Assembly (NCBI GenBank): GCA_943328975.2
Contig: CALQCC020000018.1
Location: forward strand, 1-64,000
DNA from: Bordetella parapertussis
GTDB taxonomy: Bacteria; Acidobacteriota; Terriglobia; Bryobacterales; Bryobacteraceae
Reading direction: 5' to 3'
DNA: 64,000 nucleotides
Below the pieces are notes generated by a model, which made no database searches, was not told where the DNA came from, and saw only the letters and a program-made list of their open reading frames with translations. Shown piece after piece: positions 166 to 61,564 of the stretch. Each line of letters opens with the position of its first letter. Position 1 is the first letter of the stretch. The translations under genes were made by a program, and so were the position numbers.

Positions 166-171
166 TAGAGT
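166..171 (+). promoter_or_regulatory. -10 box of leaderless type (TAGAGT)
   Basis: TAGAGT ends 7 bases before the ATG at 179. There is no recognisable -35 17 bases upstream and no Shine-Dalgarno. Transcription would begin at or next to the start codon. It belongs to the window-wide TANNNT pattern and is inferred only from sequence. Confidence 0.4.
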
Positions 172-178
172 GGTGGCG

Positions 179-724
179 ATGTGTCTCCGCGTGATCTTCG
201 TTTCGACGCTGTTCCTGTTTGCGGGCGCGAGGGCGCCCTCCCAGCTGTCCGAAAGGCCTCCTTTGCTCACGGTTTGTGAAGCCGTGGAGGATCTGAAGCG
301 ATACGCCGGCAAGACGGTGATCGTTGTAGGCCGATACAGCGAAAGCGAGGAGGGTGCCTGGCTAAGCGAAGAGTGCGGGCTGAGGATTCGGAACGGTGGC
401 CTCGATTTTAGGCCGTCGATCTCAACAACCTACGTTCTCTCCGATTTTGCCCCGCCGCCCTCATTGCCAGCCGGTTTCAAATGGGATGAGCCAGCAATGC
501 GTCAAAAGTTACAGCAAGTAATGCGAACCACGGAATTGCAGGTCCTAGAAGAGGGCGGCGATAGGTGGGTTGCCATGTTTGGACGCCTAGAAACAGAACT
601 GGCACGCAACAGTCGGATTGGCGATGGTGGTTATTCTGACAGGATTGGTTTCGGCCATCTTAGTGGGGCTCCGGCCCAGTTGGTAGGCCCCGAGCGTGGA
701 CTCTATCCGTTAGCAGTTCGTTAA
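179..724 (+). CDS. Secreted hypothetical protein, small beta-rich domain
   Basis: The 181-residue product starts with a short basic end and a hydrophobic stretch (residues 1-18, MCLRVIFVSTLFLFAGARA), a likely signal peptide, so it should act outside the cytoplasm. The rest begins with a VCEAVEDLKRYAGKTVIVVGRY-like block. Its layout (VCE, about 10 residues, GK.V.V.GRY, then EGAWL..EC) resembles small OB-fold-like secreted proteins I associate with acidobacteria. Two cysteines (in VCE and EEC) might pair. An in-frame ATG exists at 35, but it would put about 48 polar residues before the signal sequence, and a TAGAGT box lies 7 bases before 179. The gene stands alone and no function can be assigned. 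Confidence 0.6.
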   Translation: MCLRVIFVSTLFLFAGARAPSQLSERPPLLTVCEAVEDLKRYAGKTVIVVGRYSESEEGAWLSEECGLRIRNGGLDFRPSISTTYVLSDFAPPPSLPAGFKWDEPAMRQKLQQVMRTTELQVLEEGGDRWVAMFGRLETELARNSRIGDGGYSDRIGFGHLSGAPAQLVGPERGLYPLAVR

Positions 725-751
725 GAACCGAAGTCGGGGCTCACTCGGATT

Positions 752-1972
752 TCAGGCCGCCGGCGTATCCAACCGCGGCCCGAGGGTCAAATAGTTGAGC
801 GCGGTCGACACTACGGCGCAGGTTAGGATCACTAGCGCCATGGGGATGGCGGGGTTGTCGAGCGATCCGAGGAACGCTGTGCCGACGGCGGCGATTAGGA
901 ACTGATTGGTGCCTAAGAGCGCGGACGCGGTGCCGGCCATTTCGGCGTGGCGCATCATTGCGATGGTGGAGCCATTGGGGAACACGAAGCCTTGCGCGGC
1001 TATGTAGACGAAGATGGCGAAGAAGACCACGGGGAGTCCGCCGATGCCGGTGAGCACCGAGGCCAGCAGCGTGATTGCTGCGACTAGCTGCGTGAGGTTC
1101 GCTACACGCAGCACCTTCCAGAGAGGGATGCGGTGCGGCATGCGTCCGTTGATCTGCGATGCTGCGACCATGCCAGCCGCGACGCTGCCGAAGAGCCAGC
1201 CGAAATGTTCGATGGCCACGCCGTATTGCGTGATGAAGACAAACGACGCGCTGGCGATGTAGGCGAAGGCTCCGGCGGAACTGAAGCCGCATACGGCGGA
1301 GGCTCCCATGAAGGTGCGGTCCTTCAAGAGGCTTGCGTAACCGGAGAGGATGGTGCCGAGATGCAGAGGTCGGCGAGCTGCGTGGCTCATCGATTCGCGC
1401 AAGCGAAAGTGCATGCCGATGAAGCACAGGGTTCCGACGGTTGCTTGCGCGAGGAATGCGGACTTCCATCCAAACCACAGCAGCAGGTAGCTGCCGAGCA
1501 GCGGAGCCAGGATCGGTGACACGCCCAGCACCAGAACCAACATCGAAAATACGCGGCGGAGTTCGGAGGGCGGGAAGAGGTCACGCACCATGGCTCGGGA
1601 GATGACGGAGCCTCCGCACGCGCCGAGGGCTTGGAAGAGGCGCAGCAGCGACATGATGCCGATGGATGGCGCGAAGGCGCAGGCGGCGGAGGAGATCGTG
1701 AAGAGCGCGAGGCTGAAGTAGAGTGGCGGCTTGCGGCCAAAGCGGTCCGTGATGGGGCCGTAGAGCAGTTGGCCGACGGCGAAGCCTGCGAGGAAGGTGA
1801 CCATCGTCGATTCGACCGCGGCGGCTGAGGCGTGGAAGATGGTTTCGAGCTGCGGCATCGCCGGCAGATACATGTCGATCGATACGGGGGCGATGGCTTG
1901 CAGCATTCCGAGCAAGACGAGAAGCTCAAGGCGTTCCCAGCGGGGCATCTCTGAAGAGGGGGGTGGAGTCAC
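752..1972 (-). CDS. MFS transporter, Bcr/CflA multidrug efflux family
   Basis: A 406-residue inner membrane protein with about 12 hydrophobic segments, the length expected for drug:proton antiporters of this family. Residues 31-40 (SIDMYLPAMP) match the family signature at the start of TM1, and residues 72-82 (GPITDRFGRKP) are the MFS motif A in the TM2-TM3 loop. By family it would export drugs or small metabolites using the proton gradient; the substrate is not predictable. It starts with GTG. It is divergent from the hydrolase at 2017 with 44 bases between them, and a TAATCT box sits 6 bases before the start codon. No regulator gene is adjacent. Confidence 0.87.
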   Translation of the reverse strand: MTPPPSSEMPRWERLELLVLLGMLQAIAPVSIDMYLPAMPQLETIFHASAAAVESTMVTFLAGFAVGQLLYGPITDRFGRKPPLYFSLALFTISSAACAFAPSIGIMSLLRLFQALGACGGSVISRAMVRDLFPPSELRRVFSMLVLVLGVSPILAPLLGSYLLLWFGWKSAFLAQATVGTLCFIGMHFRLRESMSHAARRPLHLGTILSGYASLLKDRTFMGASAVCGFSSAGAFAYIASASFVFITQYGVAIEHFGWLFGSVAAGMVAASQINGRMPHRIPLWKVLRVANLTQLVAAITLLASVLTGIGGLPVVFFAIFVYIAAQGFVFPNGSTIAMMRHAEMAGTASALLGTNQFLIAAVGTAFLGSLDNPAIPMALVILTCAVVSTALNYLTLGPRLDTPAA

Positions 1973-1978
1973 GGAGAA

Positions 1979-1984
1979 AGATTA
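1979..1984 (-). promoter_or_regulatory. -10 box of leaderless type (TAATCT) for the MFS gene
   Basis: On the minus strand TAATCT ends 6 bases before the GTG start at 1972. A second candidate, TACACT, overlaps it by one base at 1984-1989 (11 bases from the start). Either would give an mRNA with almost no leader. Confidence 0.35.
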
Positions 1985-2001
1985 GTGTAACAGTGTCAGG
2001 A

Positions 2002-2007
2002 TAGAAT
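2002..2007 (+). promoter_or_regulatory. -10 box of leaderless type (TAGAAT)
   Basis: TAGAAT ends 9 bases before the ATG at 2017 and would drive the three-gene operon to 5122. There is no purine-rich ribosome binding site between the box and the start codon. Confidence 0.4.
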
Positions 2008-2016
2008 CGAATAATC

Positions 2017-5146: not shown

Positions 5147-5152
5147 TACCCT
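5147..5152 (+). promoter_or_regulatory. Extended -10 box (TGcTACCCT) before the nucleoside operon
   Basis: TACCCT, preceded by TG plus one base, ends 9 bases before the ATG at 5162. A competing TATGCT at 5142-5147 would give a slightly longer leader. No Shine-Dalgarno is visible. Confidence 0.3.
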
Positions 5153-11306: not shown

Positions 11307-11320
11307 GGTGATGTGTGTCT

Positions 11321-11384
11321 GTCCGCTCCCTTACGGTCGCGGTTCTGTGTCGGGAGCCAACGTCACGGCTGTTAGGGAGCGGAC
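11321..11384. repeat. Palindromic repeat with 11-bp terminal inverted repeats
   Basis: GTCCGCTCCCT (11321-11331) is repeated inverted as AGGGAGCGGAC (11374-11384) around 42 bases that include ACGGTCGCGG. It occupies most of the uvrA-mutY divergent spacer. Read forward it encodes a [10 protein letters not shown]-like string that I recall as common in spurious acidobacterial ORFs, which suggests a dispersed intergenic repeat. Only one copy was noticed in this window. Confidence 0.65.
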
Positions 11385-11399
11385 GGACGGTATGTACTC

Positions 11400-11405
11400 T
11401 AGTAT
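11400..11405 (+). promoter_or_regulatory. -10 box of leaderless type (TAGTAT) for mutY
   Basis: TAGTAT ends 6 bases before the TTG start at 11412. The intervening bases (AGAAAA) do not form a Shine-Dalgarno. It lies just outside the palindromic repeat. Confidence 0.4.
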
Positions 11406-15106: not shown

Positions 15107-15112
15107 ATTCTA
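15107..15112 (-). promoter_or_regulatory. -10 box of leaderless type (TAGAAT) for queC-queE
   Basis: On the minus strand TAGAAT ends 9 bases before the queC ATG (15097). The intervening GAGGGTTCC is purine rich, so a weak Shine-Dalgarno cannot be excluded, but a standard leader does not fit. There is no room for a preQ1 riboswitch. Confidence 0.4.
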
Positions 15113-15138: not shown

Positions 15139-15144
15139 TATGAT
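15139..15144 (+). promoter_or_regulatory. Extended -10 box (TGgTATGAT) that decides the OPT start
   Basis: TATGAT with an upstream TG ends 7 bases before the ATG at 15152. The alternative ATG at 15140 lies inside this box, which is the reason the later start is preferred. Confidence 0.45.
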
Positions 15145-17188: not shown

Positions 17189-17198
17189 CGGCACTTGT

Positions 17199-17204
17199 TA
17201 AAGT
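17199..17204 (+). promoter_or_regulatory. Extended -10 box (TGtTAAAGT)
   Basis: TAAAGT preceded by TG plus one base ends 6 bases before the TTG start at 17211. The gene could instead be read from the OPT promoter, 22 bases separating the two genes. Confidence 0.3.
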
Positions 17205-17210
17205 AGAAAG

Positions 17211-19583
17211 TTGCCCCGCCTAAGTGTTTCCGGAGAATCAACCGCCAGCGGTTCCCAGTGGACCCAGCTCTATCTAGGGTTGGGTTTCACAACGCTCGCG
17301 ACGTTGCTGCTTGAGCTGTCCTTGACGCGACTGTTTTCGGTCGTCTTCTTCTATCACTTCGCGTTTCTGGCGATCTCGCTGGCGTTGTTCGGCTTCGGAG
17401 CCGGAGGTGTGTTCTCTTACGTCATCGCGAACCGGCCGGGGAATCTTTCGGCAGAGTTGGGGCGGCTGACGTTCATCAACAGCGTGGTTGTTGTTCTGCT
17501 GCTGTGGTTCATCTTGACGCGACATGGGGACATGACGCTGGCAACGCTCGCCGGCGTCTATGTCGCGAGTGCGGTGCCGTTTTTCTTTGCCGGGACCGTG
17601 GTCTCACTGGCGATCAGTGAGGCGATCGGGCGCATCGACCGGGCGTATCTGTGGGACTTGATGGGAGCGGCTGCGGGTTGTTTGTTGCTGGTTCCGTTCC
17701 TCGACTACTTTGGTGGACCCAATACGGTGATCGCGGCGGGTGTAATTTATGGGATCGCCGCATCGATTTGGTTTAACCGCGCGGGCGAAGCGCAGTTGCG
17801 GGCGTCCGCGGTGCTAGTGTCGTTGTTGTTGGTGACGTTGATGATCATGAACGGTACCAATCACATTTTCGATGTGCAGTGGGCCAAGGGCGAACGGCTG
17901 CCGGAAGAACGGATGTCGAAGTGGAATAGTTTCTCGCGTGTGGGCCTCACGCGCGTGCCGCAGGGTTACTGGGATATTCGCATTGATGCGGACGCTGCGA
18001 CGGGGATTCCGAACATCGATTGGGATAAGCCGCTCACGCCGGCGCAGAAGGACGACCTGCTAAATCGTGGGGCGGGGTTGCCGTACCTACTGCGTCCGGG
18101 CGCGAAGACCGTGATCATCGGAGCAGGTGGTGGGTACGATCTGGCTCGCGCGCTTGGTTCGGGTAGCAAAGATGTCACAGGTGTAGAGATCAATCCGATC
18201 ATCGCCAACGACATCATGCGCGGGCAGATGCGGAAGGAAAGTTTCGGGCTGTATCAACGGCCAGAGGTGCGGATCTTTGTCGAAGACGGCCGCAGTTTCA
18301 TTCGCAGCAGTCCCGAAAAATACCAAGTGTTGCAGGCGACGTTGGTGGATACGTGGGCATCCACAGCAGCGGGCGCGTTCGCGTTGTCCGAGAATAATCT
18401 CTACACGGCGGATGCGTTTGAAGATTATCTCGCGCATTTGACCGATGATGGGGTGCTGGCGTTTAGCCGCTGGGGTTTCGATCCGCCTCGTGAATCGCTG
18501 CGTGTAATCTCGCTCGGCATGGAAGCGCTGGGGCGGTTGGGTGAGAAGAATCCGGCGCTGCACGTCATTGCTGTTCGGGAGCAGGCCGCGAACCTTGGTG
18601 GCTGGGGCGCACTCGATACATTGCTGATCTCGCGTAAGCCGTTCACGGCAGCGGATATCGAACACGCCGGGCACTTGGCGTCGGAGATCGGCCTGGAGGT
18701 TCTCTACTTGCCGGGGGCGGGGCTACAGAATCCGTTTGGGCAGATGCTGTCGAGCGCGAATCCGGCGGCGTTCTGGCGCGACTATCAATTCGATGTCACG
18801 CCAGTGACGGATGATCGGCCGTTCTTCTTTTATACAGTGCAGGCTCGCGATTTGTGGGATTACTTGCGCAATGCGAGCCAATCCAGCGCGGACTTCAAAG
18901 TGAACCAGGCAGTCCCGTTGCTGTTCGGACTGATGGTGCTGTGTTTGGTGGCCACGGGACTGGTGATGGTGTTGCCTCGACTGGTGTTGGGGAGCCGATT
19001 GCCGAAACAGAAGGGCATCCTTACGTTCTTGCTGTATTTCGTGTGTTTGGGGGCCGGGTACATTTTGGTGCAGATGGCGTTGATCCAAAAGTTCATGCTG
19101 TTGTTGGGACAGCCGACGCGGGCTCTGACGGTGATTGTGTTCTCGATGCTGGTTGCGAGCGGAGCGGGGAGCTACTTCAGCCGGACGGTGGTCGCCGGCG
19201 TCGATCGGCGATTGATGATGGTGCTGGCCGCCGTCGCAGCGCTGATCGCATTGCTGGCGGTGGGCGCCACTCCCCTCGTGCGTGTGGCCGCGACTTGGCC
19301 GATGGTGGCCCGCGTGATGGTCGCGGTGGCGGCGATTGCTCCGGCGGCGTTCTTCATGGGGATGCCCTTTCCTAGCGGGCTACGAAGATTAGAAGAGCGG
19401 CATGCTCCGTCGTTACGCTGGGCTTGGTCATTGAACGCGGCTGCGAGTGTGGCGGGCTCTGTGGTTTCGGTGGTGCTCGCGATTTACCTGGGCTTGCGTG
19501 TGACGTTGTTGATCGGTGGCGCGATGTATCTAGTGGCGCTGCTGGTTATCCTGATCACGCGTCGCGATTCACAACCTGCATGA
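17211..19583 (+). CDS. Membrane-fused spermidine-synthase-like (SAM fold) protein
   Basis: 790 residues in three parts: about five to six membrane segments (residues 18-210), a Rossmann SAM-binding domain (about 215-560) with VIIGAGGGYDLARAL at about 300-313 and the acidic ribose contact in GVEINP, and another six membrane segments (about 575-785). The fold matches polyamine aminopropyltransferase-like proteins, but the catalytic DSSDP-type motif of true spermidine synthases is not found: the corresponding strand reads LVDTWASTAAG. I infer a methyltransferase-like or other membrane function rather than spermidine synthesis. Start is TTG. It overlaps the uridine kinase gene by ATGA. Confidence 0.72.
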   Translation: MPRLSVSGESTASGSQWTQLYLGLGFTTLATLLLELSLTRLFSVVFFYHFAFLAISLALFGFGAGGVFSYVIANRPGNLSAELGRLTFINSVVVVLLLWFILTRHGDMTLATLAGVYVASAVPFFFAGTVVSLAISEAIGRIDRAYLWDLMGAAAGCLLLVPFLDYFGGPNTVIAAGVIYGIAASIWFNRAGEAQLRASAVLVSLLLVTLMIMNGTNHIFDVQWAKGERLPEERMSKWNSFSRVGLTRVPQGYWDIRIDADAATGIPNIDWDKPLTPAQKDDLLNRGAGLPYLLRPGAKTVIIGAGGGYDLARALGSGSKDVTGVEINPIIANDIMRGQMRKESFGLYQRPEVRIFVEDGRSFIRSSPEKYQVLQATLVDTWASTAAGAFALSENNLYTADAFEDYLAHLTDDGVLAFSRWGFDPPRESLRVISLGMEALGRLGEKNPALHVIAVREQAANLGGWGALDTLLISRKPFTAADIEHAGHLASEIGLEVLYLPGAGLQNPFGQMLSSANPAAFWRDYQFDVTPVTDDRPFFFYTVQARDLWDYLRNASQSSADFKVNQAVPLLFGLMVLCLVATGLVMVLPRLVLGSRLPKQKGILTFLLYFVCLGAGYILVQMALIQKFMLLLGQPTRALTVIVFSMLVASGAGSYFSRTVVAGVDRRLMMVLAAVAALIALLAVGATPLVRVAATWPMVARVMVAVAAIAPAAFFMGMPFPSGLRRLEERHAPSLRWAWSLNAAASVAGSVVSVVLAIYLGLRVTLLIGGAMYLVALLVILITRRDSQPA

Positions 19584-21079: not shown

Positions 21080-21085
21080 AGTATA
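21080..21085 (-). promoter_or_regulatory. -10 box of leaderless type (TATACT) for queG
   Basis: On the minus strand TATACT ends 8 bases before the ATG at 21071. No good -35 hexamer is found 17 bases upstream and no Shine-Dalgarno intervenes. Confidence 0.45.
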
Positions 21086-27220: not shown

Positions 27221-27226
27221 ACTATA
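27221..27226 (-). promoter_or_regulatory. -10 box of leaderless type (TATAGT) for lepB
   Basis: On the minus strand TATAGT ends 9 bases before the ATG at 27211. The intervening GGTGTGGAG contains a GGAG directly touching the start codon, too close for a normal ribosome binding site. Confidence 0.4.
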
Positions 27227-31361: not shown

Positions 31362-31367
31362 AATCTA
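31362..31367 (-). promoter_or_regulatory. Extended -10 box (TGcTAGATT) for ada-alkB
   Basis: On the minus strand TAGATT, with TG one base before it, ends 6 bases before the GTG start at 31355. An Ada-type operator would have to overlap or lie upstream of it; I could not recognise one. Confidence 0.4.
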
Positions 31368-39035: not shown

Positions 39036-39041
39036 AGTGTA
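39036..39041 (-). promoter_or_regulatory. Extended -10 box (TGtTACACT) for the six-gene operon
   Basis: On the minus strand TACACT, with TG one base upstream, ends 8 bases before the ATG at 39027. It lies in the 39-base gap after the ABC efflux operon, giving the oxidoreductase operon its own start. Confidence 0.45.
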
Positions 39042-40212: not shown

Positions 40213-40214
40213 GG

Positions 40215-43205: not shown

Positions 43206-44371
43206 AGTACGATCTCCGCGTCCACCGGCATGTTGTTTTTCAATTCATGCGCGGTGTTGTCCACTTCGATCTTCACGCGGTAGACCAGCTTCACGCGTTC
43301 TTCCTTGGTCTGGATCTGTTTCGGCGTGAACTCGGCTTCGGAGGAGATAAAGGAAATGCGGCCCGGGTATTTCTTTCCGGGGAAAGAATCGGTGCTCAAA
43401 GAAACGGTGCCGCCCAGATGGACGCGGCCCAGATCCGTCTCGTTGACGTAGGCGCGTAGCCACGGATGATCCAGATCTCCGATGCTGATGATGGTGGTGC
43501 CGGCGGCAACTACTTCTCCGGATTCAGCGGCCTTCAGCAGGATTACGCCGTCGATGGGCGCGACCAGCGTGGTATCCGCCAACTGCGCGTCCGTCATGCC
43601 CACCAGAGCCTTGTTGCGGTCGATTTCCGCACGCCGTCCGGTCAGTTCCTGCTCCTTGCGCTTGATCTCGATCCGATTCGCCTCCGCAGTGGCGATTGCC
43701 GCCTGCGCCCGAGCGACAGCCGCTCGCGCCGCCGTGATCTCTTCTTTACGCGGACCTTCTTGCACCAGCGCTAGACGCTGCTCGGATTGGCGGAGCAAGG
43801 CATTGGTGCTATCGACCTTGGTCTTCGCTTGATCGCGTTGCGAGGTCGAGATGTCTTCGCGGCTGTAGAGCGTCTGCGCGCGTTCCCACTCTGCTTTGGC
43901 GATATCGTTCCAGGCGTGGGCGTCGGTAACGGCGGCCTGCGCCTGCGCGATTTCCTGCGAGCGGCTTCCCGCTAGCAAGTCGTCCAGCCGAGCCTGCGCT
44001 TGGGCCAGTTCCGCCCGTCGCAGTGCTACGTCGCTTTCAATGGTCGCCTTCTGATACTCGATGGACGTTTGGAGCTGTTGATACTGGGACTGAGCGCCGC
44101 TGACAGAAGCCGCGTCTCGCGCCCGCTGCTGTTCCAGTTGCGAGGCCTCCAGCTTGGCGATCACTTGGCCCTTCTTGACCCACTCGCCTTCGCGCACCGT
44201 GAGCTCGGTCACCCGTCCGGCTGTCTTAAAGGACAAGTCGACCTGCGTCAGTTCCAGGTTTCCTGAGATCTGCAGCCGATTGCCGTTCGCGGCCACCTGC
44301 TGCTGGTTCCAATACCAATATCCACCGCCAGCGACGGCCAATAACAATAGAATCGGAAGACGTTTCTTCAT
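43202..44371 (-). CDS. HlyD/MFP-type periplasmic adaptor (YbhG-like)
   Basis: 389 residues anchored by an N-terminal membrane segment (about 5-22, LPILLLLAVAGGGYWYW). A first lipoyl half (GRVTELTVREGEWVKKGQVIAKLE, seen in part) is followed by long Ala/Gln/Arg-rich coiled-coil hairpins (about 85-260), the second lipoyl half (DGVILLKAAESGEVVAAG) and a beta-barrel domain. Such adaptors bridge the inner membrane ABC complex to an outer membrane channel. The adjacent tolC-like gene, overlapping by 4 bases, supplies that channel. Confidence 0.92.
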   Translation of the reverse strand: MKKRLPILLLLAVAGGGYWYWNQQQVAANGNRLQISGNLELTQVDLSFKTAGRVTELTVREGEWVKKGQVIAKLEASQLEQQRARDAASVSGAQSQYQQLQTSIEYQKATIESDVALRRAELAQAQARLDDLLAGSRSQEIAQAQAAVTDAHAWNDIAKAEWERAQTLYSREDISTSQRDQAKTKVDSTNALLRQSEQRLALVQEGPRKEEITAARAAVARAQAAIATAEANRIEIKRKEQELTGRRAEIDRNKALVGMTDAQLADTTLVAPIDGVILLKAAESGEVVAAGTTIISIGDLDHPWLRAYVNETDLGRVHLGGTVSLSTDSFPGKKYPGRISFISSEAEFTPKQIQTKEERVKLVYRVKIEVDNTAHELKNNMPVDAEIVL

Positions 44372-45681
44372 GGTTTTACGAACTCCTGAATGTGTCCTGT
44401 CGCCACGGCCAAGTCGAGCCGGGCAACGTTGTAACTGTAAAGCGCAAGAATCTGGTTGTCGCGAGCGCGATCCAACCGAGCCTGCGCGTTGGTGATTTCG
44501 AGCGGGATGCCGACGCCGGCTTGGTAGCGTCTCTGCGCCTGTTCTACTTCGTTCTGCGCCAGAGCCAAGCCCTCCCGTGCGGTGGTTACCTGTGATTCGG
44601 CTGAGCGGATGCTGTCCATCGCCAGCCGGACTTCCAGCTCCACCTGCTGTTCCAGATCGCGGGTCCGAAGCTGTTCGGCCCGTAGTTGGGTATTACTCTC
44701 CAGCCGCCGAGCGCTGCGCCGGCCGCCGTCGAACAAAGGAATGGAGACCGAAACTCCAACGGTGCGTGTGCGCGCCAGTCCGATGGCAGGCTGCCCAATG
44801 CCGCCGTAATCCCCGAACGTGGAAACGGTGGGCAAACGTTCCGCCTCAACCGCGGAAGTGTTCATGCGAGCGACTGTTTCCCGCTGTTTCTGGGCCCGTA
44901 ATTCCAACCTGGATTCGTGAGCGCGCGTGAGTGCCGCCTCTGCGCTGCCCAGATCCGCGGGGGAGTAACTCAGCTTATCGACCAACTGGACCGGCATGGA
45001 AAGATCCAATCCCATCGCCCGCAGCAACTGCAGCCCCGCGCGATTGCGTTCGTTCCGCACAACGATTAAGCGGCCATCGTCGTTCGCCAATTGGACCTGC
45101 GCTCGGGTGACCTCGATGCCAGTCCCCGTACCCGCGTCCTTTTGCGATTTCGCCAAATCCACCAGCGCCCGGGACAAATCCACATTGGCCTGCGCGGCTT
45201 CGAGTGCCGCATCCGCGCGCAACGTTGCCAGATAGGCCCGCGCAACTTGGTCGGTGACCTGAGTCTTGGTGACTTCGAGGTCCGCCTTGCTGGTATCGAC
45301 TCCAGCCTGCACTGCACGGTAGCGGCGTAGGTTGGCGAAATCGAGCACCGTCCATCGCGCCGTGGGGCGGATGTCCACTACCGAGAACGGGCCCACCACG
45401 TTGGGAAGTGTGAATCCCGGCACGCTGATGTTGAAGCCGAAGGTTCGCAGATTCACCGTCTGATTGCGCGCCTGGAAGGTGCCGTCCACCGTGGGTAGCA
45501 AGGTCGACTTGGCCTGCAGGACCTGGTTCTCCGCACGGACGATGGATTGCTCCGCCAGCGCGATCTTGAGGCTGCCCTCCGGACTGGTGGCGATATCCAC
45601 GGCTCGGGCCAAGCTCAGTTGCAGCGTCGTTTGCGCGAACGCTGCCGCTGAAAACACAAAACTGAGGAACACGTTTCGCAT
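44368..45681 (-). CDS. TolC family outer membrane efflux channel
   Basis: 437 residues with a signal peptide (MRNVFLSFVFSAAAFAQ) and the internal twofold repeat of TolC proteins: LARAVDIATSPEGSLKIALAEQSI at the start of repeat one and the AQKQRETVARMNTSAVEAERLP region at the start of repeat two, both helix rich. It forms the trimeric channel-tunnel used by the HlyD-ABC assembly encoded downstream. E. coli ybhGFSR has no dedicated channel gene and relies on TolC, so this dedicated copy is an addition. It starts 5 bases after the regulator's stop. Confidence 0.92.
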   Translation of the reverse strand: MRNVFLSFVFSAAAFAQTTLQLSLARAVDIATSPEGSLKIALAEQSIVRAENQVLQAKSTLLPTVDGTFQARNQTVNLRTFGFNISVPGFTLPNVVGPFSVVDIRPTARWTVLDFANLRRYRAVQAGVDTSKADLEVTKTQVTDQVARAYLATLRADAALEAAQANVDLSRALVDLAKSQKDAGTGTGIEVTRAQVQLANDDGRLIVVRNERNRAGLQLLRAMGLDLSMPVQLVDKLSYSPADLGSAEAALTRAHESRLELRAQKQRETVARMNTSAVEAERLPTVSTFGDYGGIGQPAIGLARTRTVGVSVSIPLFDGGRRSARRLESNTQLRAEQLRTRDLEQQVELEVRLAMDSIRSAESQVTTAREGLALAQNEVEQAQRRYQAGVGIPLEITNAQARLDRARDNQILALYSYNVARLDLAVATGHIQEFVKP

Positions 45682-45686
45682 AGGGG

Positions 45687-46301
45687 TTAAGTTGTATTGG
45701 ATGCCGGGGTATGGAACCCGGCGGCAAGAAATTGTACGGTGCGCCGCAATAACGCCTCGCGGTCGTCAATGCTGCAAAGGCCATTGGTGATGCGGGGAAT
45801 GAGGTGGCCCCACAAAAGGGTGTGCGTCATCACGCCCACCGAAAACTGCATCCGCCAGAAAATATCGACCATCGGCAAACCGGGCAAGGCCTCGCTGAGG
45901 GCTGTGGAAAAACGGAGCGCAACGGGTGCCAGATGGACGTTGAATAGGCGGTCGACAAACATGTCCGGGTTCGACATGACGCGGCCCATGAGCGGAATCA
46001 GGGACTGAATCCGAATCTCAAAAATCGGCCGCAGGAAGGCGTCGAGGATCTTTTCCACGGTAGGATTCGGGCCTGCCGCATCCAGCATTTCGAGCCGACG
46101 AGCGTTCACCGGCTCAATTCTGCGCGCGATCACGGCGTCGATCAGGGCGTCCTTGGAGTGAAAATGATAGTTGACGGCCGCAAGATTCACGGCGGCGTCG
46201 GTTGTGATGTCACGTAAAGAAACAGACTCGAAGCCATTCATTCCGAACAGTTTCTCTGCCGTGTCCAGGATTCGACCTTTGGTGCCTGTACGTTCACTCA
46301 T
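45687..46301 (-). CDS. TetR family repressor of the efflux operon (CecR-like)
   Basis: 204 residues. The N-terminal helix-turn-helix is at about 9-55 (RILDTAEKLFGMNGFESVSLR, seen in part, then AAVNYHFHSKDALIDAVIARR); the C-terminal ligand domain has the RPIFEIRI and PNPTVEKILDAFL features of the CecR (YbiH) subfamily. As the first gene of the seven-gene operon it most likely represses itself and the pump, through the inverted repeat at 46317-46332. Inducer unknown; for CecR-type systems antibiotics or related small molecules are reported. Start ATG is the only good one, 12 bases after the -10 box. Confidence 0.92.
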   Translation of the reverse strand: MSERTGTKGRILDTAEKLFGMNGFESVSLRDITTDAAVNLAAVNYHFHSKDALIDAVIARRIEPVNARRLEMLDAAGPNPTVEKILDAFLRPIFEIRIQSLIPLMGRVMSNPDMFVDRLFNVHLAPVALRFSTALSEALPGLPMVDIFWRMQFSVGVMTHTLLWGHLIPRITNGLCSIDDREALLRRTVQFLAAGFHTPASNTT

Positions 46302-46313
46302 ACGAACGTTTTA

Positions 46314-46342
46314 ATCATACAATTGAATGTATCCTCCGTCAA
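46314..46342 (-). promoter_or_regulatory. Promoter TTGACG-17-TATGAT of the TetR-efflux operon
   Basis: On the minus strand TTGACG (46342-46337) and TATGAT (46319-46314) are separated by exactly 17 bases, the best sigma70-like promoter in the window. Transcription would start about 5-6 bases before the ATG at 46301. Confidence 0.7.
46317..46332. promoter_or_regulatory. Candidate TetR operator ATACA-N6-TGTAT
   Basis: A perfect 5-bp inverted repeat with a 6-base centre (ATTGAA) covers the spacer between the -35 and -10 boxes and half of the -10, where repressor binding would block RNA polymerase. A second inverted repeat, ACGTTC-N8-GAACGT (46290-46309), spans the tetR start codon. Confidence 0.6.
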
Positions 46343-46356
46343 GAGAACTGTTTGGC

Positions 46357-47979
46357 ATGAAACTTCCACCGCGCCCTGTACGTCGGATCTCCATGGTCTT
46401 TTTGCGTCTCGCAGCCGCCGGGCTGATGGTGGCATCCGCGTGGGCGCAGGAGCCGCCCGCCCCCACCTTCCGGGCGAGCACCCGGCTGGTCCAGGTGGAC
46501 GTCGTAGTGAAGTCCAAGGACGCCCCTGTGGGCGGCCTCACCAAGGACGACTTCCAGGTCTCCGACAACGGTAAGCTGCAGCAGATCGCTGTCTTCAGCG
46601 TGCGCGAGGTCAACGTAACGCCGCCGGTCGCCGTGCCACTGCCTGCGGGCGTGGTGACGAACCGTCCCCAGTATCGTGGCGTGGAGCCAGTGTCCGCCAC
46701 CGTGGTTCTTATCGACGCCCAGAACACACAGCCCGAAGACCAAGGTTACGCACGCTTGCAAGCTCTGAAGTATTTGGACCGGGCCTCCCGGCGGGAACTG
46801 GTCGCGGTGTACGCGCTGGACACGACGCTCAAGGTCCTGCAAGGGTTCACCGAAGACCGCGCGGCTCTGCGGGCGTCGATCGACAAGTACAAGATGACGC
46901 AGTCGCTGAACATGCAGGACGGTACCCCTGGATCACCGGGTCTGCTGACTGGCCTCACTGGCAACGGGGCAAACGCGATGCGAGCGATGAACTTCCAGCG
47001 GCAGGCCGACATCACTTCCGCCGCCTTTGAATCCATCGCCCGACACCTGTCAGGACTACCGGGCCGCAAGAAGTTCATCTGGATCACCGCTGCCCCACCG
47101 CTCACCTTCACGCAGGAGAACGAGCGCAACGGTGCCACCATGAGAGAATTTACCAACCTGAGTCCGCAACTCTTTGCACCCCTGCGACTGATGAACGATG
47201 CCAATGTCGCCATCTATCCGCTCGACCCGCGCGGTGTCTTGCCGTACCATACTCCGGGGCTGAACGACCCTGGCCTACCCACGATGATCCAACTTGCCGA
47301 GATGACGGGGGGCAAGGCGTTCTATAACGACAACGACTTGGCTTCGGAGATCGAGGCCGCCATCGCCGACACCGACCTCACCTACACGCTCGGCTTTTAC
47401 CCAACCGAGGAAGGAGTTGACGGTAGTCTTCATTCCATCTCGGTAAAAGTGAATCGCAGCGGAGCGGACGCACGCTATCGCAGGTCTTATACAGCCGAGA
47501 CGGTCACCAAGCCGCTCACAGAGAAGTTTCGTAAAGCGACGCTAAGTGCTTGGGTGAACCAGCCGCTGGATTCGACCGAGATCCCCCTTCAAGCCGCCGC
47601 CGTGCCGACGATCAACAAGCCCGGATATTACGACGTCGAAGTAGGCATCGATCCGTCGTCGCTGAAGCTCGAACAAAAGGACGGTAGCTTTGTCGGCAGC
47701 TTTGAAGTTGCCATCGTGCCTGACGTTGAGAATAGCCCCAAAGGCCTGCACCAGACGATCAAAGTGAATCTTACGCAGGAGCGTTTACTCAAGGCGCTCC
47801 AAACCGGCATCGTGGTGATCAATCAGATTCGCGTCATCAACAACAAAGGCAAGCTGCTCGCCAATCAACTGCACTTGGTGGTGATGGATCAGGCGACAGG
47901 CAAGACCGGCTCCGTGCGGATTCCGCTCTGTGGGGCAGGCTCCCAGCCTGCAAACCGGTTCATAACCGGCTCCTGCTGA
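46357..47979 (+). CDS. Acidobacterial VWFA-related exported protein, degenerate MIDAS
   Basis: 540 residues. Signal peptide to about residue 32 (LRLAAAGLMVASAWAQ). A first beta-domain (STRLVQVDVVVKSKD, then VGGLTKDDFQVSDNGKLQ) is followed by the VWFA-type domain (about 115-340). Where the metal-ion site DxSxS should be, the strand reads VVLIDAQNTQ, so the metal site is probably lost, unlike in the two VWFA proteins at 51.4-53.4 kb. The last 16 codons lie inside the cloverleaf repeat (from 47930), ending GAGSQPANRFITGSC, so the native C-terminus was probably replaced by repeat insertion. Divergent from the TetR gene. Function unknown. Confidence 0.75.
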   Translation: MKLPPRPVRRISMVFLRLAAAGLMVASAWAQEPPAPTFRASTRLVQVDVVVKSKDAPVGGLTKDDFQVSDNGKLQQIAVFSVREVNVTPPVAVPLPAGVVTNRPQYRGVEPVSATVVLIDAQNTQPEDQGYARLQALKYLDRASRRELVAVYALDTTLKVLQGFTEDRAALRASIDKYKMTQSLNMQDGTPGSPGLLTGLTGNGANAMRAMNFQRQADITSAAFESIARHLSGLPGRKKFIWITAAPPLTFTQENERNGATMREFTNLSPQLFAPLRLMNDANVAIYPLDPRGVLPYHTPGLNDPGLPTMIQLAEMTGGKAFYNDNDLASEIEAAIADTDLTYTLGFYPTEEGVDGSLHSISVKVNRSGADARYRRSYTAETVTKPLTEKFRKATLSAWVNQPLDSTEIPLQAAAVPTINKPGYYDVEVGIDPSSLKLEQKDGSFVGSFEVAIVPDVENSPKGLHQTIKVNLTQERLLKALQTGIVVINQIRVINNKGKLLANQLHLVVMDQATGKTGSVRIPLCGAGSQPANRFITGSC

Positions 47980-48019
47980 ATTGCAAACGCCCAGCGACGG
48001 CTACGAGCCGCCGAGCAGC

Positions 48020-48036
<17 letters not shown>
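47930..48036. repeat. Cloverleaf palindromic repeat, 107 bp, four hairpins in a 9-bp outer stem
   Basis: The outer stem is GTGGGGCAG (47930-47938) with CTGCCCCAC (48028-48036). Inside are GCAGGCT-CCC-AGCCTGC (47935-47951), CCGGTT-CAT-AACCGG (47955-47969), CGGCT-ACG-AGCCG (47998-48010) and GCAGCTT-ACG-AAGCTGC (48015-48031), all perfect stems with 3-base loops. The outer stem shares bases with the first and last hairpins, so alternative folds exist. It holds the stop codons of both convergent genes (VWFA TGA 47977-47979; kdsA 48020-48022). It may act as a bidirectional terminator and looks like a REP-type mobile repeat. Confidence 0.8.
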
Positions 48037-51310
<3,274 letters not shown>

Positions 51311-51383: not shown

Positions 51384-51389
51384 TATACT
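51384..51389 (+). promoter_or_regulatory. Extended -10 box (TGtTATACT) before the VWFA cluster
   Basis: TATACT with an upstream TG. It ends 9 bases before an in-frame GTG at 51399, or 27 bases before the ATG at 51417. If the window-wide leaderless spacing holds, 51399 is the real start. Confidence 0.4.
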
Positions 51390-51416
51390 GAAGCCAGGGT
51401 GCCGGGACCCTCATAC

Positions 51417-52421
51417 ATGATGCGATTTGCCGCGGTGGTCGCCTTGACGCTGTTCGCACTCTCTTCGCCGGTTGGGGCGCAGGGACAGAAACCAAGTGTG
51501 CCTGCGACTGGCACGACAATCGTTCCGCGCGTGCGGCCGCCTGCCGCAGACGACGCGGAGTCCATTCTGGATCGCCGGGCTGATCTCCGTATCGACACTA
51601 CTGAAGTCCGCATTCCTGTATCCGTGACGCATCAGCAATCCGGGAAAGTGGTGACTGGCCTCGAAGTCATCAATTTCGAACTCTTTGAAGACAAGGTCAA
51701 GCAGGAGATCCTGTCGTTTACGGCGGAAGACGCTCCGGTGTCTGTGGGCGTAGTATTCGACGCCAGCGGCAGCATGGGGACCAAGCTTTCCAAGTCTCGC
51801 CAGGCCGTATCGCAGTTCGTTCGCACCGCAAATCCGGAAGACGAGTTCTTCCTGGTGCAGTTCAACGATCGACCGGCGTTGACCGTGCCATTTACCGCAG
51901 AGACGGAGGAAATCCTCAATCGTCTCGCGTTTGTGCAGTCGAAGGGAGCGACGGCCCTGCTCGACGGCGTTTACATGGCCATGAACGAAATGAAAAAAGC
52001 GCGTAACGCACGCAAGGCCATCCTGATCATCTCTGATGGAGGGGATAACTCCAGCCGATACACCGAATCAGAAGTCAAGAATGCGGTGCGCGAGGCAGAC
52101 GTCCAGATCTACGCGATCGGCATTTTTGAGCCAAATGGGATGGGCAACACGCAGGAAGAACGAATGGGCCCTGGTTTGCTCGGAGAATTGACAGAGCAGA
52201 CGGGCGGTCGGCATTTCGCGATTCAGAATTTGGGCGAATTGCCGGACGTGGCGGAAAAGATTGGACTCGAATTGCGTAACGAATATGTGCTCGGGTATCG
52301 TCCAAAGAATGAGTCCCGAGATGGAAAATATCGCAAGGTGGAAGTGAAATTGGTAAAGGTTGAAAAATTGCCGCGTTTGAAGAGCCGTGCCCGGGGTGGA
52401 TACTATGCGCCAGCTCAGTAA
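51417..52421 (+). CDS. VWFA domain exported protein with intact MIDAS (first of tandem pair)
   Basis: 334 residues with a signal peptide (MMRFAAVVALTLFALSSPVGAQ). Residues about 60-115 form a beta-domain (TTEVRIPVSVTHQQSGKVV, then NFELFEDKVKQEILSF), then a VWFA domain with complete metal site DASGS in VGVVFDASGSM (about 119), a TALLDG Thr site and IIISDGGDN-like Asp (LIISDGGDNSS). The C-terminal NEYVLGYRPKNESRDGKYRK segment recurs in acidobacterial VWFA proteins. Function unknown; binding of a protein partner outside the cytoplasm is likely. GTG at 51399 is an alternative start. It overlaps the next gene by 17 bases. Confidence 0.82.
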   Translation: MMRFAAVVALTLFALSSPVGAQGQKPSVPATGTTIVPRVRPPAADDAESILDRRADLRIDTTEVRIPVSVTHQQSGKVVTGLEVINFELFEDKVKQEILSFTAEDAPVSVGVVFDASGSMGTKLSKSRQAVSQFVRTANPEDEFFLVQFNDRPALTVPFTAETEEILNRLAFVQSKGATALLDGVYMAMNEMKKARNARKAILIISDGGDNSSRYTESEVKNAVREADVQIYAIGIFEPNGMGNTQEERMGPGLLGELTEQTGGRHFAIQNLGELPDVAEKIGLELRNEYVLGYRPKNESRDGKYRKVEVKLVKVEKLPRLKSRARGGYYAPAQ

Positions 52422-54494: not shown

Positions 54495-56321
54495 TTGACC
54501 AGTCGCGTAATCCTGATTGCTTTGCTCGCCCGCGTGTTGACCGCACAGGATGCGGTTCGCTACGAGCTGAGCTTCCCCAACGCCGCCCATCACGAGGCGG
54601 AGGTCCGCGCCACCTTCACTGCGCTGCCATTGGGGACGCTCGAAGTGGTGATGAGTCGATCCTCACCTGGGCGTTACTCGCTGCACGAGTTCGCTCGCAA
54701 CATGTACAACGTTCGGGCCAAGGACGCGGCAGGCCGCGCTCTCGCGATTGCGCGATCCACGCCCTATCAGTGGAACGTTTCCGGCCACAACGGTACGGTC
54801 ATCTTCGAATACACGCTCTTCGGCGACGTGGTCAACGGAACCTACAACGCGATCGACTTGACCCATGCCCACCTCAACGCTCCAGCCACCTTTGTGTGGG
54901 CGAGAGGCCTGGAACAGCGGCCTGTTCAGGTGAAACTCGAAGCGCCCCAAGGCGTCGAATGGACGGTGGCCACCCAGCTCGCCGCTTCGGGCGATTGGTG
55001 GACAGCCCCCTCCCGAGACCTCTTGATCGACAGCCCCATCGAGTTCGGCCCGCACAAGCTCCGCGAGTGGCGTGTCGGCGATGCGCAATTCCGAATGGTG
55101 CTGCATTCGACGGCGGACGAGGCGACGGTTTCCGAGTACGCTCGCCTGTGCGAGGCTGTGACAGTCGAAGCGCAAGGCGTGTTCGGAACCTTCCCGCGCT
55201 ATGACTCGGGTCGCTACACAATGCTGCTGGATTATCTGCCGTACGCATCCAGAGACGCGATGGAGCATCGAAACTCCACCTTCATCAGCCACGCTCCACC
55301 TCCCGGGAAAAGCAGCGCGGACTTGATCGAATCGGTGGCGCATGAGTTTTTCCATTCCTGGAACGTCGAGCGAATCCGTCCGCGTTCGCTGGAACCATTC
55401 GATCTGGAGCGCCCCAACATGTCCGGTGAACTGTGGTTCGCCGAAGGCGTCACGAACTACTACGGACCGCTGGTGCTCACTCGCGCAGGCATCATGGACT
55501 TGGACCGCTTTGCCGCAGACCTGGGCATCGCCCTGAACGCGCTGCTAACCTCGCCGGGCAGGGAACTGTTTGACGCAGTCGGGATGAGCCAACTTGCGCC
55601 GTTCTACGACCGCGCCGCCGGTGGCGAACCCAGCAACGAAGAGAACGCCTTCCTCTCCTATTATTACTACGGGCAGGCCCTGGGCGCGGGTATCGATCTC
55701 GATATTCGCACCCGCTTTCCCGGCAAGAGTCTGGATGACTGGATGCGAGCCATGTGGCGCTCACATCCCGACGTAGACAAGCCCTACACGCAGGACGATC
55801 TGCAACGGGCGCTCGCGGAGGCGACGGAAAGCGAAACATTTGCCCACGAAATGTTTTCCCGCTACGTGAACGGGCACGAAGCGATGGACTACAAGACGCT
55901 GCTGGCGCGCGCGGGTTTGTTGCTGCGCAAAGTAACGCCCGGCGAAGTGTGGTTCGGCGCGCCGCAGGCAAATGCATCCAGCACCGGACTTTCGATCAAC
56001 GGTGGTGTTCTTCGCGGCTCACCCGCCTACGTGGCTGGTATTGATCGCGGCGACCGCGTGGTCTCCGTGGACGGCAAAGATATCAAGGAACAGAAGGATT
56101 GGGACAAGATTCTTAAGTCGCACAAGCCTGGGGACCAGACGCGCGTTGTCGTGGAAGGCCGCGGAGGACGCAGAAACGTGCCCCTGGTGTGGCAGGAAGC
56201 TCCTGCCCTAGAACTGGTGACCTACGAATCCGCGAAGCAAACCGTGACGGCCTCGATCCGTGAGTTTCGGACAGCGTGGTTAGGCTCGAAGGCCATTCAT
56301 CCCTTGCCAAAGCTACAATGA
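54495..56321 (+). CDS. M61 family metallopeptidase with C-terminal PDZ domain
   Basis: 608 residues. Signal peptide MTSRVILIALLARVLTAQ; an N-terminal beta-domain; the zinc site HEFFHSWNVERIRP (H283, E284, H287), with the third ligand in WFAEGVTNYYG (about Glu317); and a PDZ domain at about 500-575 (GSPAYVAGIDRGDRVVSVDG). Family M61 glycyl aminopeptidases remove N-terminal Gly from peptides. The start is TTG with GAGGGGG 6 bases upstream, a clear Shine-Dalgarno. It overlaps the PD40 gene by ATGA (56318-56321), so peptide turnover in the periplasm coupled with its neighbour is plausible. Confidence 0.9.
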   Translation: MTSRVILIALLARVLTAQDAVRYELSFPNAAHHEAEVRATFTALPLGTLEVVMSRSSPGRYSLHEFARNMYNVRAKDAAGRALAIARSTPYQWNVSGHNGTVIFEYTLFGDVVNGTYNAIDLTHAHLNAPATFVWARGLEQRPVQVKLEAPQGVEWTVATQLAASGDWWTAPSRDLLIDSPIEFGPHKLREWRVGDAQFRMVLHSTADEATVSEYARLCEAVTVEAQGVFGTFPRYDSGRYTMLLDYLPYASRDAMEHRNSTFISHAPPPGKSSADLIESVAHEFFHSWNVERIRPRSLEPFDLERPNMSGELWFAEGVTNYYGPLVLTRAGIMDLDRFAADLGIALNALLTSPGRELFDAVGMSQLAPFYDRAAGGEPSNEENAFLSYYYYGQALGAGIDLDIRTRFPGKSLDDWMRAMWRSHPDVDKPYTQDDLQRALAEATESETFAHEMFSRYVNGHEAMDYKTLLARAGLLLRKVTPGEVWFGAPQANASSTGLSINGGVLRGSPAYVAGIDRGDRVVSVDGKDIKEQKDWDKILKSHKPGDQTRVVVEGRGGRRNVPLVWQEAPALELVTYESAKQTVTASIREFRTAWLGSKAIHPLPKLQ

Positions 56322-57322: not shown

Positions 57323-57328
57323 AACGCA

Positions 57329-58127: not shown

Positions 58128-58133
58128 TAGAAT
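58128..58133 (+). promoter_or_regulatory. -10 box of leaderless type (TAGAAT)
   Basis: TAGAAT ends 6 bases before the ATG at 58140; the transcript would start on the A of the ATG. No -35 is visible. Confidence 0.4.
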
Positions 58134-58139
58134 AGGGGC

Positions 58140-58961: not shown

Positions 58962-58963
58962 CT

Positions 58964-60016: not shown

Positions 60017-60023
60017 TTCTTTC

Positions 60024-60029
60024 AGAGTA
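60024..60029 (-). promoter_or_regulatory. Extended -10 box (TGtTACTCT) for rlmN
   Basis: On the minus strand TACTCT, with TG one base upstream, ends 7 bases before the ATG at 60016. It is placed back to back with the TAACAT box of the divergent gene inside a 36-base spacer. Confidence 0.45.
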
Positions 60030-60038
60030 ACATTCGAC

Positions 60039-60044
60039 TAACAT
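60039..60044 (+). promoter_or_regulatory. -10 box of leaderless type (TAACAT) for the tannase gene
   Basis: TAACAT ends 8 bases before the ATG at 60053. No Shine-Dalgarno lies in AGACAGTC. Together with the box at 60024-60029 it would give two leaderless transcripts from a spacer too short for normal leaders. Confidence 0.45.
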
Positions 60045-60052
60045 AGACAGTC

Positions 60053-61564
60053 ATGAAGATCGCGTTTTTCCTTATTGCCGGTATTTGTGCCGTGCAGGCC
60101 GCTCCCGTCATTGACTGCTCCGCGCTTGCCTCCAAATCTTTTGGGGCTGATGTCAAAATTGAATCCGCTAAAGCCGTTGCTGCCGCTGCCAACCTGCCCG
60201 CCCATTGCGAAGTTCGTGGCGTGATCTGGCCGGAAGCGCGCTTCGTTGTGAAGTTGCCGACAGCATGGAATGAACGTTTCCAGATGGTCGGGAACGGCGG
60301 GTGGGCCGGCACCATCACGACCGCCGCAGTGGACGCAGCTGTGCGTGGTGGCTATGCCTCTACGTCCACCGATACGGGTCACGATGCGCAAAAGGAGCCC
60401 GGAGCTACATTCGCCTTGAAGAGCGACACGAACCCCAACGCCGCGCGCAAGGTGATCGACCACGGCTATCTCTCGGTTCATGAGACCGCGCTGCTGGCGA
60501 AGAAAGTGATCCGGGCCTACTACGGCGCCGACGCGAAGTATTCTTATTGGGTCGGCTGCTCCACCGGCGGACGGCAAGGCCTCATCGAAGCCCAACGGTA
60601 TCCGGAGGACTTCGACGGCTACGTGATCGGAGCTCCTGTGCTCAACCTCAGCGGCTTGCAGATGAAAGCGATTTGGAATTGGATTCAAGTTGGTCCGGGC
60701 CCCGGCGAGATCAAGGCGGAGAAATTGCCTGCGCTGGAAGCAGGTGTTTACAGTAAGTGCGATGCCTTGGATGGATTGAAAGACGGGTTGATCGAAAACC
60801 CGCTGACGTGCAATTTCGATCCGGCCAAAGATCTACCCAAATGCTCCGGTGCGGAGACTGCAACGTGCTTCACCGCCGGACAGATCGCTGCACTGAAGAA
60901 GGTCTACGATGGCGTTCACAATTCAAAGGGCGAGTTGTTGTTCCCCGGAGCCGCGCTGGGCGGCGAGGCATTCGCAGCTGGACGAGGCGGAGTTCGCACC
61001 AGCGGCTGGGATGGCTCCATGTTGGCTAGCTTTCAACTTGGCGACACGTTCATGAAGTTCATGGCGTTCGACGTACGCCCCGGCGCCAAGTGGGACTATC
61101 ACTCGTATAACTTCGACACCGATCCGGTCAAGATGGCGAACACCGCGTTAGTGATCAACGCCACCGTCACTGACCTTACCGCCGTGAAGATGCGCGGCGC
61201 GAAGATCGTCCACTATCATGGCTGGGCCGATCCCGGTGTGACCTCGAAGATGTCCGTCGACTACTACGAAGCCGCGAAGCGTACCATGGGCGAGAAAGAG
61301 ACCACCGACTTCTATCGCTTCTTCCCCGTTCCTGGAATGTTCCATTGCGGTGGAGGCCCCGGCTGCGGCGACGCCGATTGGTTGACCGCCGTCGTCAACT
61401 GGGTGGAAAAGGGCGTAGCCCCTGAGATGGTCGTCGGTGCACACGTGGAGAATGGCCAGACGACACGCACACGACCGCTCTGCATGTACCCGACGGTTGC
61501 GCGTTACAAAGGCACCGGCAGTATCGACCAGGCAGAGAACTTCGCCTGTGCAGCGCAGCGGTAG
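60053..61564 (+). CDS. Tannase/feruloyl esterase family hydrolase
   Basis: 503 residues with a signal peptide (MKIAFFLIAGICAVQAAP). The serine nucleophile is S170 in WVGCSTGGRQG; the acid is probably the Asp in HYHGWADPGV and the base His in GMFHCGGGPG, the family pattern with a disulfide bringing nucleophile and His regions together. Members hydrolyse ester bonds in tannins or feruloylated polysaccharides in the periplasm or outside the cell, consistent with plant-material use by soil bacteria. Which ester is cut is unknown. DUF1697 follows directly (TAG then ATG). Confidence 0.88.
   Translation: MKIAFFLIAGICAVQAAPVIDCSALASKSFGADVKIESAKAVAAAANLPAHCEVRGVIWPEARFVVKLPTAWNERFQMVGNGGWAGTITTAAVDAAVRGGYASTSTDTGHDAQKEPGATFALKSDTNPNAARKVIDHGYLSVHETALLAKKVIRAYYGADAKYSYWVGCSTGGRQGLIEAQRYPEDFDGYVIGAPVLNLSGLQMKAIWNWIQVGPGPGEIKAEKLPALEAGVYSKCDALDGLKDGLIENPLTCNFDPAKDLPKCSGAETATCFTAGQIAALKKVYDGVHNSKGELLFPGAALGGEAFAAGRGGVRTSGWDGSMLASFQLGDTFMKFMAFDVRPGAKWDYHSYNFDTDPVKMANTALVINATVTDLTAVKMRGAKIVHYHGWADPGVTSKMSVDYYEAAKRTMGEKETTDFYRFFPVPGMFHCGGGPGCGDADWLTAVVNWVEKGVAPEMVVGAHVENGQTTRTRPLCMYPTVARYKGTGSIDQAENFACAAQR

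Follow-up and report, generated by a model that had tools for sequence, protein, structure and literature searches.

In Deinococcus-Thermus, experimental work places a -10 motif about 6–7 bp before open reading frames (ORFs), with TACACT as the commonest form in D. radiodurans, and the same report puts the share at about 30% of ORFs (PMC12340547). Many mycobacterial mRNAs begin directly with the start codon (PMC4633059, PMC3898074), and the reporter assays of one of these papers found TTG and CTG to be ineffective at the leaderless position, with ATG or GTG being needed (PMC4633059). For the Acidobacteria, an in silico survey of 2011 that included 953 bacterial genomes and dealt with TA-like (TANNNT) leaderless signals predicted 13.3% (9.7–19.4) leaderless genes, with 3 of 3 genomes of the phylum counted in its Table 2 (PMC3160421). 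Here, we analyze TANNNT boxes that end 6–9 bases before start codons in a 64,000-nucleotide stretch of DNA (hereafter, the window) from a member of the Bryobacteraceae, class Terriglobia; the window lies on contig C18 of a 4.34-Mb genome in 69 contigs. With a probability of roughly 0.87, we read these boxes as extended -10 promoters of the sigma-70 type that would give leaderless or near-leaderless mRNAs.

Extended -10 sigma-70 promoters carry TGn before the box and no -35. The boxes studied here are alike in both respects, and differ in abutting the start codon. Their layout also resembles that of Deinococcus-Thermus, a different phylum, and plasmid 1 of D. deserti was positive in the test that we used. 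Unlike the mycobacterial case, TTG is conserved as the start of the gene at position 17211, and is also found at 11412. The Acidobacteria of PMC3160421 match in motif, place, and phylum, and their 9.7–19.4% overlaps the range found here; in the passages concerned they appear in a table and a list, with species unnamed and no orthologs compared, whereas we compared orthologs. A preliminary description of the window had known of no account for this lineage, a claim that fails at the level of the phylum given that prediction. Among the papers listed in one library on Acidobacteria with leaderless genes or differential RNA sequencing, no title or abstract opening reported mapped transcript starts. 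Promoters of this kind have been described before, and for the phylum they had been predicted; added here are comparative support and some corrected starts. What is new is the gene at 17211, whose conserved box-TTG layout would be a notable exception to the start-codon rule.

Position and nature of the TANNNT box

We sampled 864 kb of the genome, comprising the window and 40 stretches of 20 kb, with 728 complete called genes. Genes were called with a custom script from coding composition and start-codon type, never using an upstream motif, and all in-frame candidates in the neighborhood of a gene start entered the test, which avoided picking any one of them. Distance is the number of bases between the last T of TANNNT and the start codon; two sets of out-of-frame candidates and boxes at other distances served as controls. 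In-frame ATG candidates had 37 boxes at distance 6 and 38 at distance 7, compared to 10.9 per distance in the background, with no peak at these distances in either out-of-frame set (6 and 7 boxes, background 12.7; 2 and 5 boxes, background 4.8). GTG candidates had 12 and 9 boxes (background 6.7) and TTG candidates had 12 and 10 (background 7.1). A broader excess of TTG candidates at distances 4–7 (45 vs. about 28) is not claimed, as an in-frame TTG just before the true ATG can cause it.

A box at 6–9 was present in 27 of the 104 genes with one possible start (single-start genes), and 15 of the 104 had one at exactly 6, where the background is 0.72 per distance. Leaving out the window, the count was 25 of 93, whereas intervals four distances wide between 10 and 90 averaged 2.77 and never exceeded 9. 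The 27 genes start with ATG (20), GTG (5), or TTG (2). Positional enrichment at 6–9, which the preliminary description had put forward as one check of its promoters, is found across the sample with motif-blind starts, and its chance estimate of about one match among 28 starts fits the background that we measured, 0.011 per position before first genes.

The presence of a box varied with the arrangement of neighboring genes. Single-start genes had one in 12 of 31 cases if divergent from their neighbor, in 8 of 16 and 3 of 19 if they followed a gene on the same strand at a gap of 15–39 or at least 40, respectively, in 2 of 32 if the gap was below 15, and in 2 of 6 at stretch edges. Pooling these, 23 of 66 first genes had a box, compared to 2 of 32 tightly packed genes (Fisher p = 0.0025). 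Being common before first genes and rare before packed ones, the box behaves like a promoter and unlike a translation signal.

The base composition of the box is also distinctive. Of the 83 boxes at distance 6–7, 52% have G at -2, 51% have A at the fourth box position, and 51% have A at the fifth; for 245 boxes at distance 25–40, the corresponding values are 33%, 23%, and 30%. TGn precedes the box in 22% of cases at 6–7 and 34% at 8–9, vs. 10% at 25–40, and a TTGACA-like -35 at spacer 15–19 is not enriched (14% of the 83 boxes vs. 12–19% at shifted controls). Shine-Dalgarno tetramers are scarce in single-start genes with a box, both by a strong definition (2 of 27 vs. 22 of 77 others, p = 0.03) and by a relaxed one (4 of 27 vs. 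29 of 77, p = 0.03). Judged by its bases, the element is an extended -10 of the sigma-70 type. The background-subtracted excess of ATG and GTG boxes amounts to 8.8% of the 728 genes (152 vs. 87.7). In our view this figure is low, as genuine boxes contribute to the background too; the 26% of single-start genes with a box (27/104), taken without background subtraction, we consider high, such genes favoring short spacers.

Conservation in the genus and the TTG gene at 17211

Two sister species, G001 and G008, were matched to the window except for positions 40001–51300. Ortholog comparisons were dropped if identity was below 60%, if the alignment started after residue 12, or if fewer than 80 bases of upstream DNA were available, and a box was scored as kept if it lay within 2 bases of the same distance in the ortholog. 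Boxes at 6–9 of called window starts were kept in 13 of 13 filtered comparisons; at other distances, boxes were kept in 15 of 37 (14–60) and 0 of 7 (0–5). For the 16 starts at which the preliminary description had listed a box, 22 of the 26 comparisons with enough upstream DNA have 6–14 identical bases among the 36 at -25 to -60, and the other four have 18, 19, 26, and 30, with identity lowered in a few of the 26 by a shifted ortholog start.

Across the genus, we counted boxes 5–10 bases before an open in-frame start, own locus included and partial or weak matches excluded, using 20 loci for 17211 (L341–L345 and L349–L353 left out), 22 for 5162 (L182–L189 left out), 20 for 15152 (L210–L217 left out as partial or weak), and 22 of 22 for 60016. 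For 5162, the box stands at 5–10 in 18 of 22 loci and at 12 in the other four; for 15152, it does so in 11 of 20. The maximum over seven permuted control patterns was 2 of 22 and 6 of 20, respectively. For 60016, which encodes RlmN, the box is at 5–10 in 16 of 22 loci, the six misses having it at 12, 12, 40, or 62 or not at all; the N-terminus of this protein varies in length, and the box shifts along with the start codon.

The gene at 17211–19583 encodes a 790-amino-acid protein without a match in Pfam or NCBIfam; counting our own, 21 of the 23 genus genomes match it strongly. All 20 genus loci with readable upstream DNA (own included) have a box at 5–10, and in 19 of them TANNNT lies exactly 6 bases from TTG, with the consensus TGnTAnAGTA-N5-TTG; in the remaining locus, L346, a second copy within its genome, the box is at 10. 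Within those 19 loci, the TTG is invariant, T-12, A-11, A-9, and T-7 occur in 19/19 (the box criterion itself fixes T-12, A-11, and T-7), T-15, G-14, and A-6 in 18/19, and G-8 in 17/19, while no position from -45 to -16 exceeds 13/19. One candidate explanation was that TAnAGTA is merely the end of one upstream gene, which we rejected: a frame of at least 136 codons ends there in only 5 of 19 loci, and in the other 14 the upstream frame is 3–91 codons long.

We had first doubted this start, as ATG or GTG is considered a requirement of leaderless initiation. However, in 17 of 19 loci there is no other ATG, GTG, or TTG from the TTG back to the preceding in-frame stop, and the codons that follow show conservation at the protein level: codon 3 specifies arginine in 18 of 19 loci, through CGC, CGT, CGG, or AGA. 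For these two reasons, the TTG is very likely the true start of the gene. Leadered transcription from further upstream would not, we infer, require an exact spacing of 6 bases; with that spacing present in 19 of 20 loci, selection may have kept both the leaderless spacing and the UUG. A review describes UUG as much less efficient in E. coli (PMC9031893). We tentatively propose, at somewhat less than even odds, that Terriglobia ribosomes can initiate on mRNAs that begin at UUG or 1–3 bases ahead of it. If RNA polymerase prefers a purine start, the 5′ end of the 17211 mRNA may lie 1–3 bases before the UUG.

The listed boxes of the window

On rechecking the sequence, TANNNT was present at 6–9 bases before all 16 listed starts, the seven said to have TGn before the box do have it, and 27362 and 32863 lack TANNNT, having CATACT and CATAAT instead, as had been stated. 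Most of these starts indeed lack both a Shine-Dalgarno and a -35: only 15097 has a Shine-Dalgarno-like tetramer at the usual spacing (an AGGA at 2017 is 15 bases away from the start), and only 60016 matches TTGACA at four of six positions with a spacer of 15–19. The boxes are given below with their distance in bases from the start codon.

166–171, + strand: TAGAGT, 7 before ATG 179; a weak case, as the gene was not called
1984–1989, - strand: TGtTACACT, 11 before GTG 1972 (MFS transporter)
2002–2007, + strand: TAGAAT, 9 before ATG 2017 (metallo-beta-lactamase superfamily); at 9 in G001 and G008
5147–5152, + strand: TGcTACCCT, 9 before ATG 5162 (pyrimidine nucleoside phosphorylase domains)
11395–11405, + strand: TACTCT (at 11) overlapping TAGTAT (at 6) before TTG 11412
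15107–15112, - strand: TAGAAT, 9 before ATG 15097 (QueC); GAGG near the start
15139–15144, + strand: TGgTATGAT, 7 before ATG 15152 (OPT transporter)
17196–17213, + strand: TGtTAAAGT, extended -10 (17196–17204), exactly 6 before TTG 17211
21080–21085, - strand: TATACT, 8 before ATG 21071 (QueG); at 8 in G001 and 9 in G008
27221–27226, - strand: TATAGT, 9 before ATG 27211 (signal peptidase S26)
31362–31367, - strand: TGcTAGATT, 6 before GTG 31355 (Ada-like); TAAATT at 6 in G001
39036–39041, - strand: TGtTACACT, 8 before ATG 39027 (Gfo/Idh/MocA family); at 8 in both sister species
51384–51389, + strand: TGtTATACT before 51399, and 27 before the likelier start ATG 51417
56314–56319, + strand: TACAAT, 7 before ATG 56327, which lies within a row of genes (gap 5); absent from the earlier list
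58128–58133, + strand: TAGAAT, 6 before ATG 58140
60024–60029, - strand: TGtTACTCT, 7 before ATG 60016 (RlmN)
60039–60044, + strand: TAACAT, 8 before ATG 60053 (tannase/feruloyl esterase family); at 8 in both sister species

Fifteen of the 16 listed starts have an ortholog in G001 or G008; for 179, none was present among the fetched loci of relatives. For 11 of the 15 (2017, 5162, 11412, 15152, 17211, 21071, 27211, 31355, 39027, 60016, and 60053), the box lies 6–9 bases before an in-frame start in every ortholog found, in part as judged by eye. Because the ortholog start was shifted, the automatic comparison overlooked the boxes of 27211 and, in G001, that of 15152; these were recovered by eye or by the genus-wide count; the 27211 box lies at 9 in G001 and 8 in G008 (by eye from printed sequence). 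At 11412, whose product is MutY-like but below the NCBIfam cut-off, both boxes are kept, at 6 and 11 in G001 and at 7 and 12 in G008. The remaining four starts behave differently. For 15097, the box is at 6–9 in one of two orthologs (at 9 in G008, and only at 4 and 12 in G001). For 1972, the box kept in relatives is TGtTACACT, at 11 in G008 and 13 in G001 (by eye), not TAATCT at 6. For 51399, it is at 6–9 in one of two orthologs, with another start, and for 58140 in none of one.

Three starts (15152, 27211, and 51399) had been chosen partly by the box rule. The boxes of the first two are kept in relatives, as seen above, while 51399 is probably not the start, ATG 51417 being likelier. The distance from the 51384–51389 box to the ATG is 27 in our genome and G008, 21 in G014, G018, and G020, and 6 in G001 (by eye), so placed that in our genome the box reads as a short-leader promoter. 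Among these orthologs, the region 51384–51419 presents a natural switch between a short-leader and a leaderless layout (by eye). For 58140, no TANNNT occurs at 6–9 in the five relatives printed, and the G019 ortholog (L296) has GGAGGAGG before ATG where our gene has TAGAAT at 6; a Shine-Dalgarno was possibly swapped for a leaderless layout here. The box at 56314–56319 is kept in G001 and G008, and may be an internal leaderless promoter of an operon gene.

In the divergent pairs 1972/2017, 15097/15152, 60016/60053, and 32863/32876, the start codons are 44, 54, 36, and 12 bp apart, and facing -10 boxes share the spacer; the 60053 box thus faces the 60016 promoter across 36 bp, and the CATAAT of 32863 would overlap the start codon of 32876. 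Separately, positions 11317–11349 (region 11307–11365) hold a short dispersed intergenic repeat that is REP-like by its spread. It has 11 more matches in the 40 other stretches of our genome, 11 of the 12 matches lie outside called genes, and there are two inverted pairs; the sister genome G001 has 27 short matches and G008 has 1.

Competing readings, extent, and significance

On the reading that we favor, a housekeeping-sigma promoter of the form TGnTAnnnT, without a -35, would have the last T of its -10 located 6–9 bases ahead of the start codon. As transcription from sigma-70 promoters usually begins some 7 bases beyond this T, the mRNA would begin at the start codon or 1–3 bases upstream of it, with no room for a Shine-Dalgarno. 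Translation would then take the leaderless route, in which the ribosome loads onto a start codon close to the 5′ terminus or right at it. This layout would serve a minority of genes, about 9% to 26%, mainly the first genes of transcription units, and part of the remaining genes carry a Shine-Dalgarno; the anti-Shine-Dalgarno is intact, the 3′ end of 16S rRNA being GGATCACCTCCTTA. In RpoD, the stretch IRIPVHMIETINK, which we take to be region 2.4/3.0, i.e., the regions for extended -10 recognition, is identical in 7ye1_F, the one solved RpoD chain with a printed alignment. Among the matches listed, the closest named relatives of RpoD are from an Acidobacteria metagenome-assembled genome (MAG; SZAS TMP-7), at 72% over residues 1–549, and a Candidatus Sulfopaludibacter MAG, also at 72% over residues 1–421, names that would place our genome in the Acidobacteriota, class Terriglobia, near Bryobacterales. 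The genome also encodes further RpoD-like proteins. On C33, C7, and C20 of G000 there are three RpoD-like sigma factors, of which two exceed the family cut-off and the third falls short of it; some 1.3 kb away from the one on C7 is a partial match containing two stops.

We examined the extent of the signal by comparing observed and expected ATG and GTG boxes at 5–9, together with single-start genes having a box at 6–9, in small samples. D. deserti plasmid 1 was positive (18 vs. 4.8; single-start 4/12) and E. coli K-12 negative (15 vs. 21.0; 1/26). Beyond our own genome, the signal is present in pooled genomes of the same family (54 vs. 25.0; 8/33), in pooled genomes of the same order (29 vs. 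16.3; 4/25), and in G154, from another order of the class (21 vs. 7.9; 4/17). No clear signal was seen in G060, a second genome of the class (single-start 0/4; ATG boxes at 6–7, 2 vs. 1.3), or in three genomes outside the class (5 vs. 3.7, 1 vs. 7.1, and 7 vs. 2.9; single-start 2/8, 0/10, and 1/23). In a comparison by group, in which 67 of 80 named loci were placed, single-start genes had a box in 8 of 28 cases for Terriglobia-like loci, 2 of 45 for Delta/Myxo, 2 of 18 for Beta/Gamma, 0 of 14 for Alpha (though ATG boxes were 5 vs. 1.9), and 9 of 43 for AT-rich Pelagibacter, with a background of about 5.4.

The leaderless-promoter reading draws on the peak at 6–7, the preference for first genes, the lack of a -35, the scarcity of Shine-Dalgarno tetramers, the extended -10 bases, and conservation. 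The box, its position, the gene class, and its conservation are thus observed, while promoter activity, the 5′ ends, and the mode of translation are deduced. The original list fared less well, with one start probably wrong (51399) and three without support in relatives at 6–9. Several points weigh against the reading. The gene caller is home-made, with many of its starts uncertain. Counting TANNNT-N(d)-ATG throughout the DNA, with gene calls disregarded, yields no clear peak (78 at distance 7, with neighbors of 61 and 59 and other distances up to 72), and a subset of 5 of the 41 loci of our genome gave only 23 boxes at 5–9 vs. 15.0 expected. The same-strand class with a gap of at least 40 is weak, the relaxed tetramer does occur in four of the 27 box genes, and the boxes of 1972, 51399, 58140, and 15097 are not kept at 6–9 in all relatives. 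Finally, permuted controls reached 13/22 for 60016 and 11/20 for 17211, because related loci share other bases too.

The count without gene calls, and the three starts chosen partly by the rule, one of them probably wrong, could suggest an artefact of start choice, composition, or the many spacings read. We regard this as scarcely credible and reject start choice as the source, as the motif-blind single-start and in-frame tests are positive with the window excluded and against out-of-frame and distance controls, the boxes are conserved in sister species, and the E. coli control is flat. It is very unlikely that TANNNT is instead a translation signal in a leader, A/T-rich or contextual as in Bacteroidetes, with transcription starting further upstream. 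Its position near the start and the many single-start genes without a Shine-Dalgarno would suit such a signal, and Flavobacterium is reported to make use of base context (PMC6847099). But a translation signal should also precede packed operon genes, and the deficit there (2/32 vs. 23/66) disfavors it, as do the extended -10 features, the variation of the middle bases among orthologs while T, A, and T stay, the intact anti-Shine-Dalgarno, and the peak of Shine-Dalgarno tetramers before other genes. Real -10 boxes with 5′ ends scattered 3–25 bases upstream, few of them truly leaderless, are also improbable. Such short leaders would fit 51417, where two species have the box at 27, three at 21, and one at 6, as well as 5162 (9–12), 1972 (11–13), and the slight rise of G at -2 and TGn at distances 10–14 too; short leaders do not fit the sharp peak at 6–7 or the exact distance of 6 in so many single-start genes and in nearly all loci of 17211.

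The comparative evidence suggests that leaderless starts serve a substantial minority of the genes in members of a large soil phylum. This bears on the annotation of starts, at least one of which moves here, on promoter design for these bacteria, and on how leaderless initiation is distributed phylogenetically. With its conserved UUG, 17211 allows a direct test of how general the rule of a 5′-terminal ATG or GTG is.

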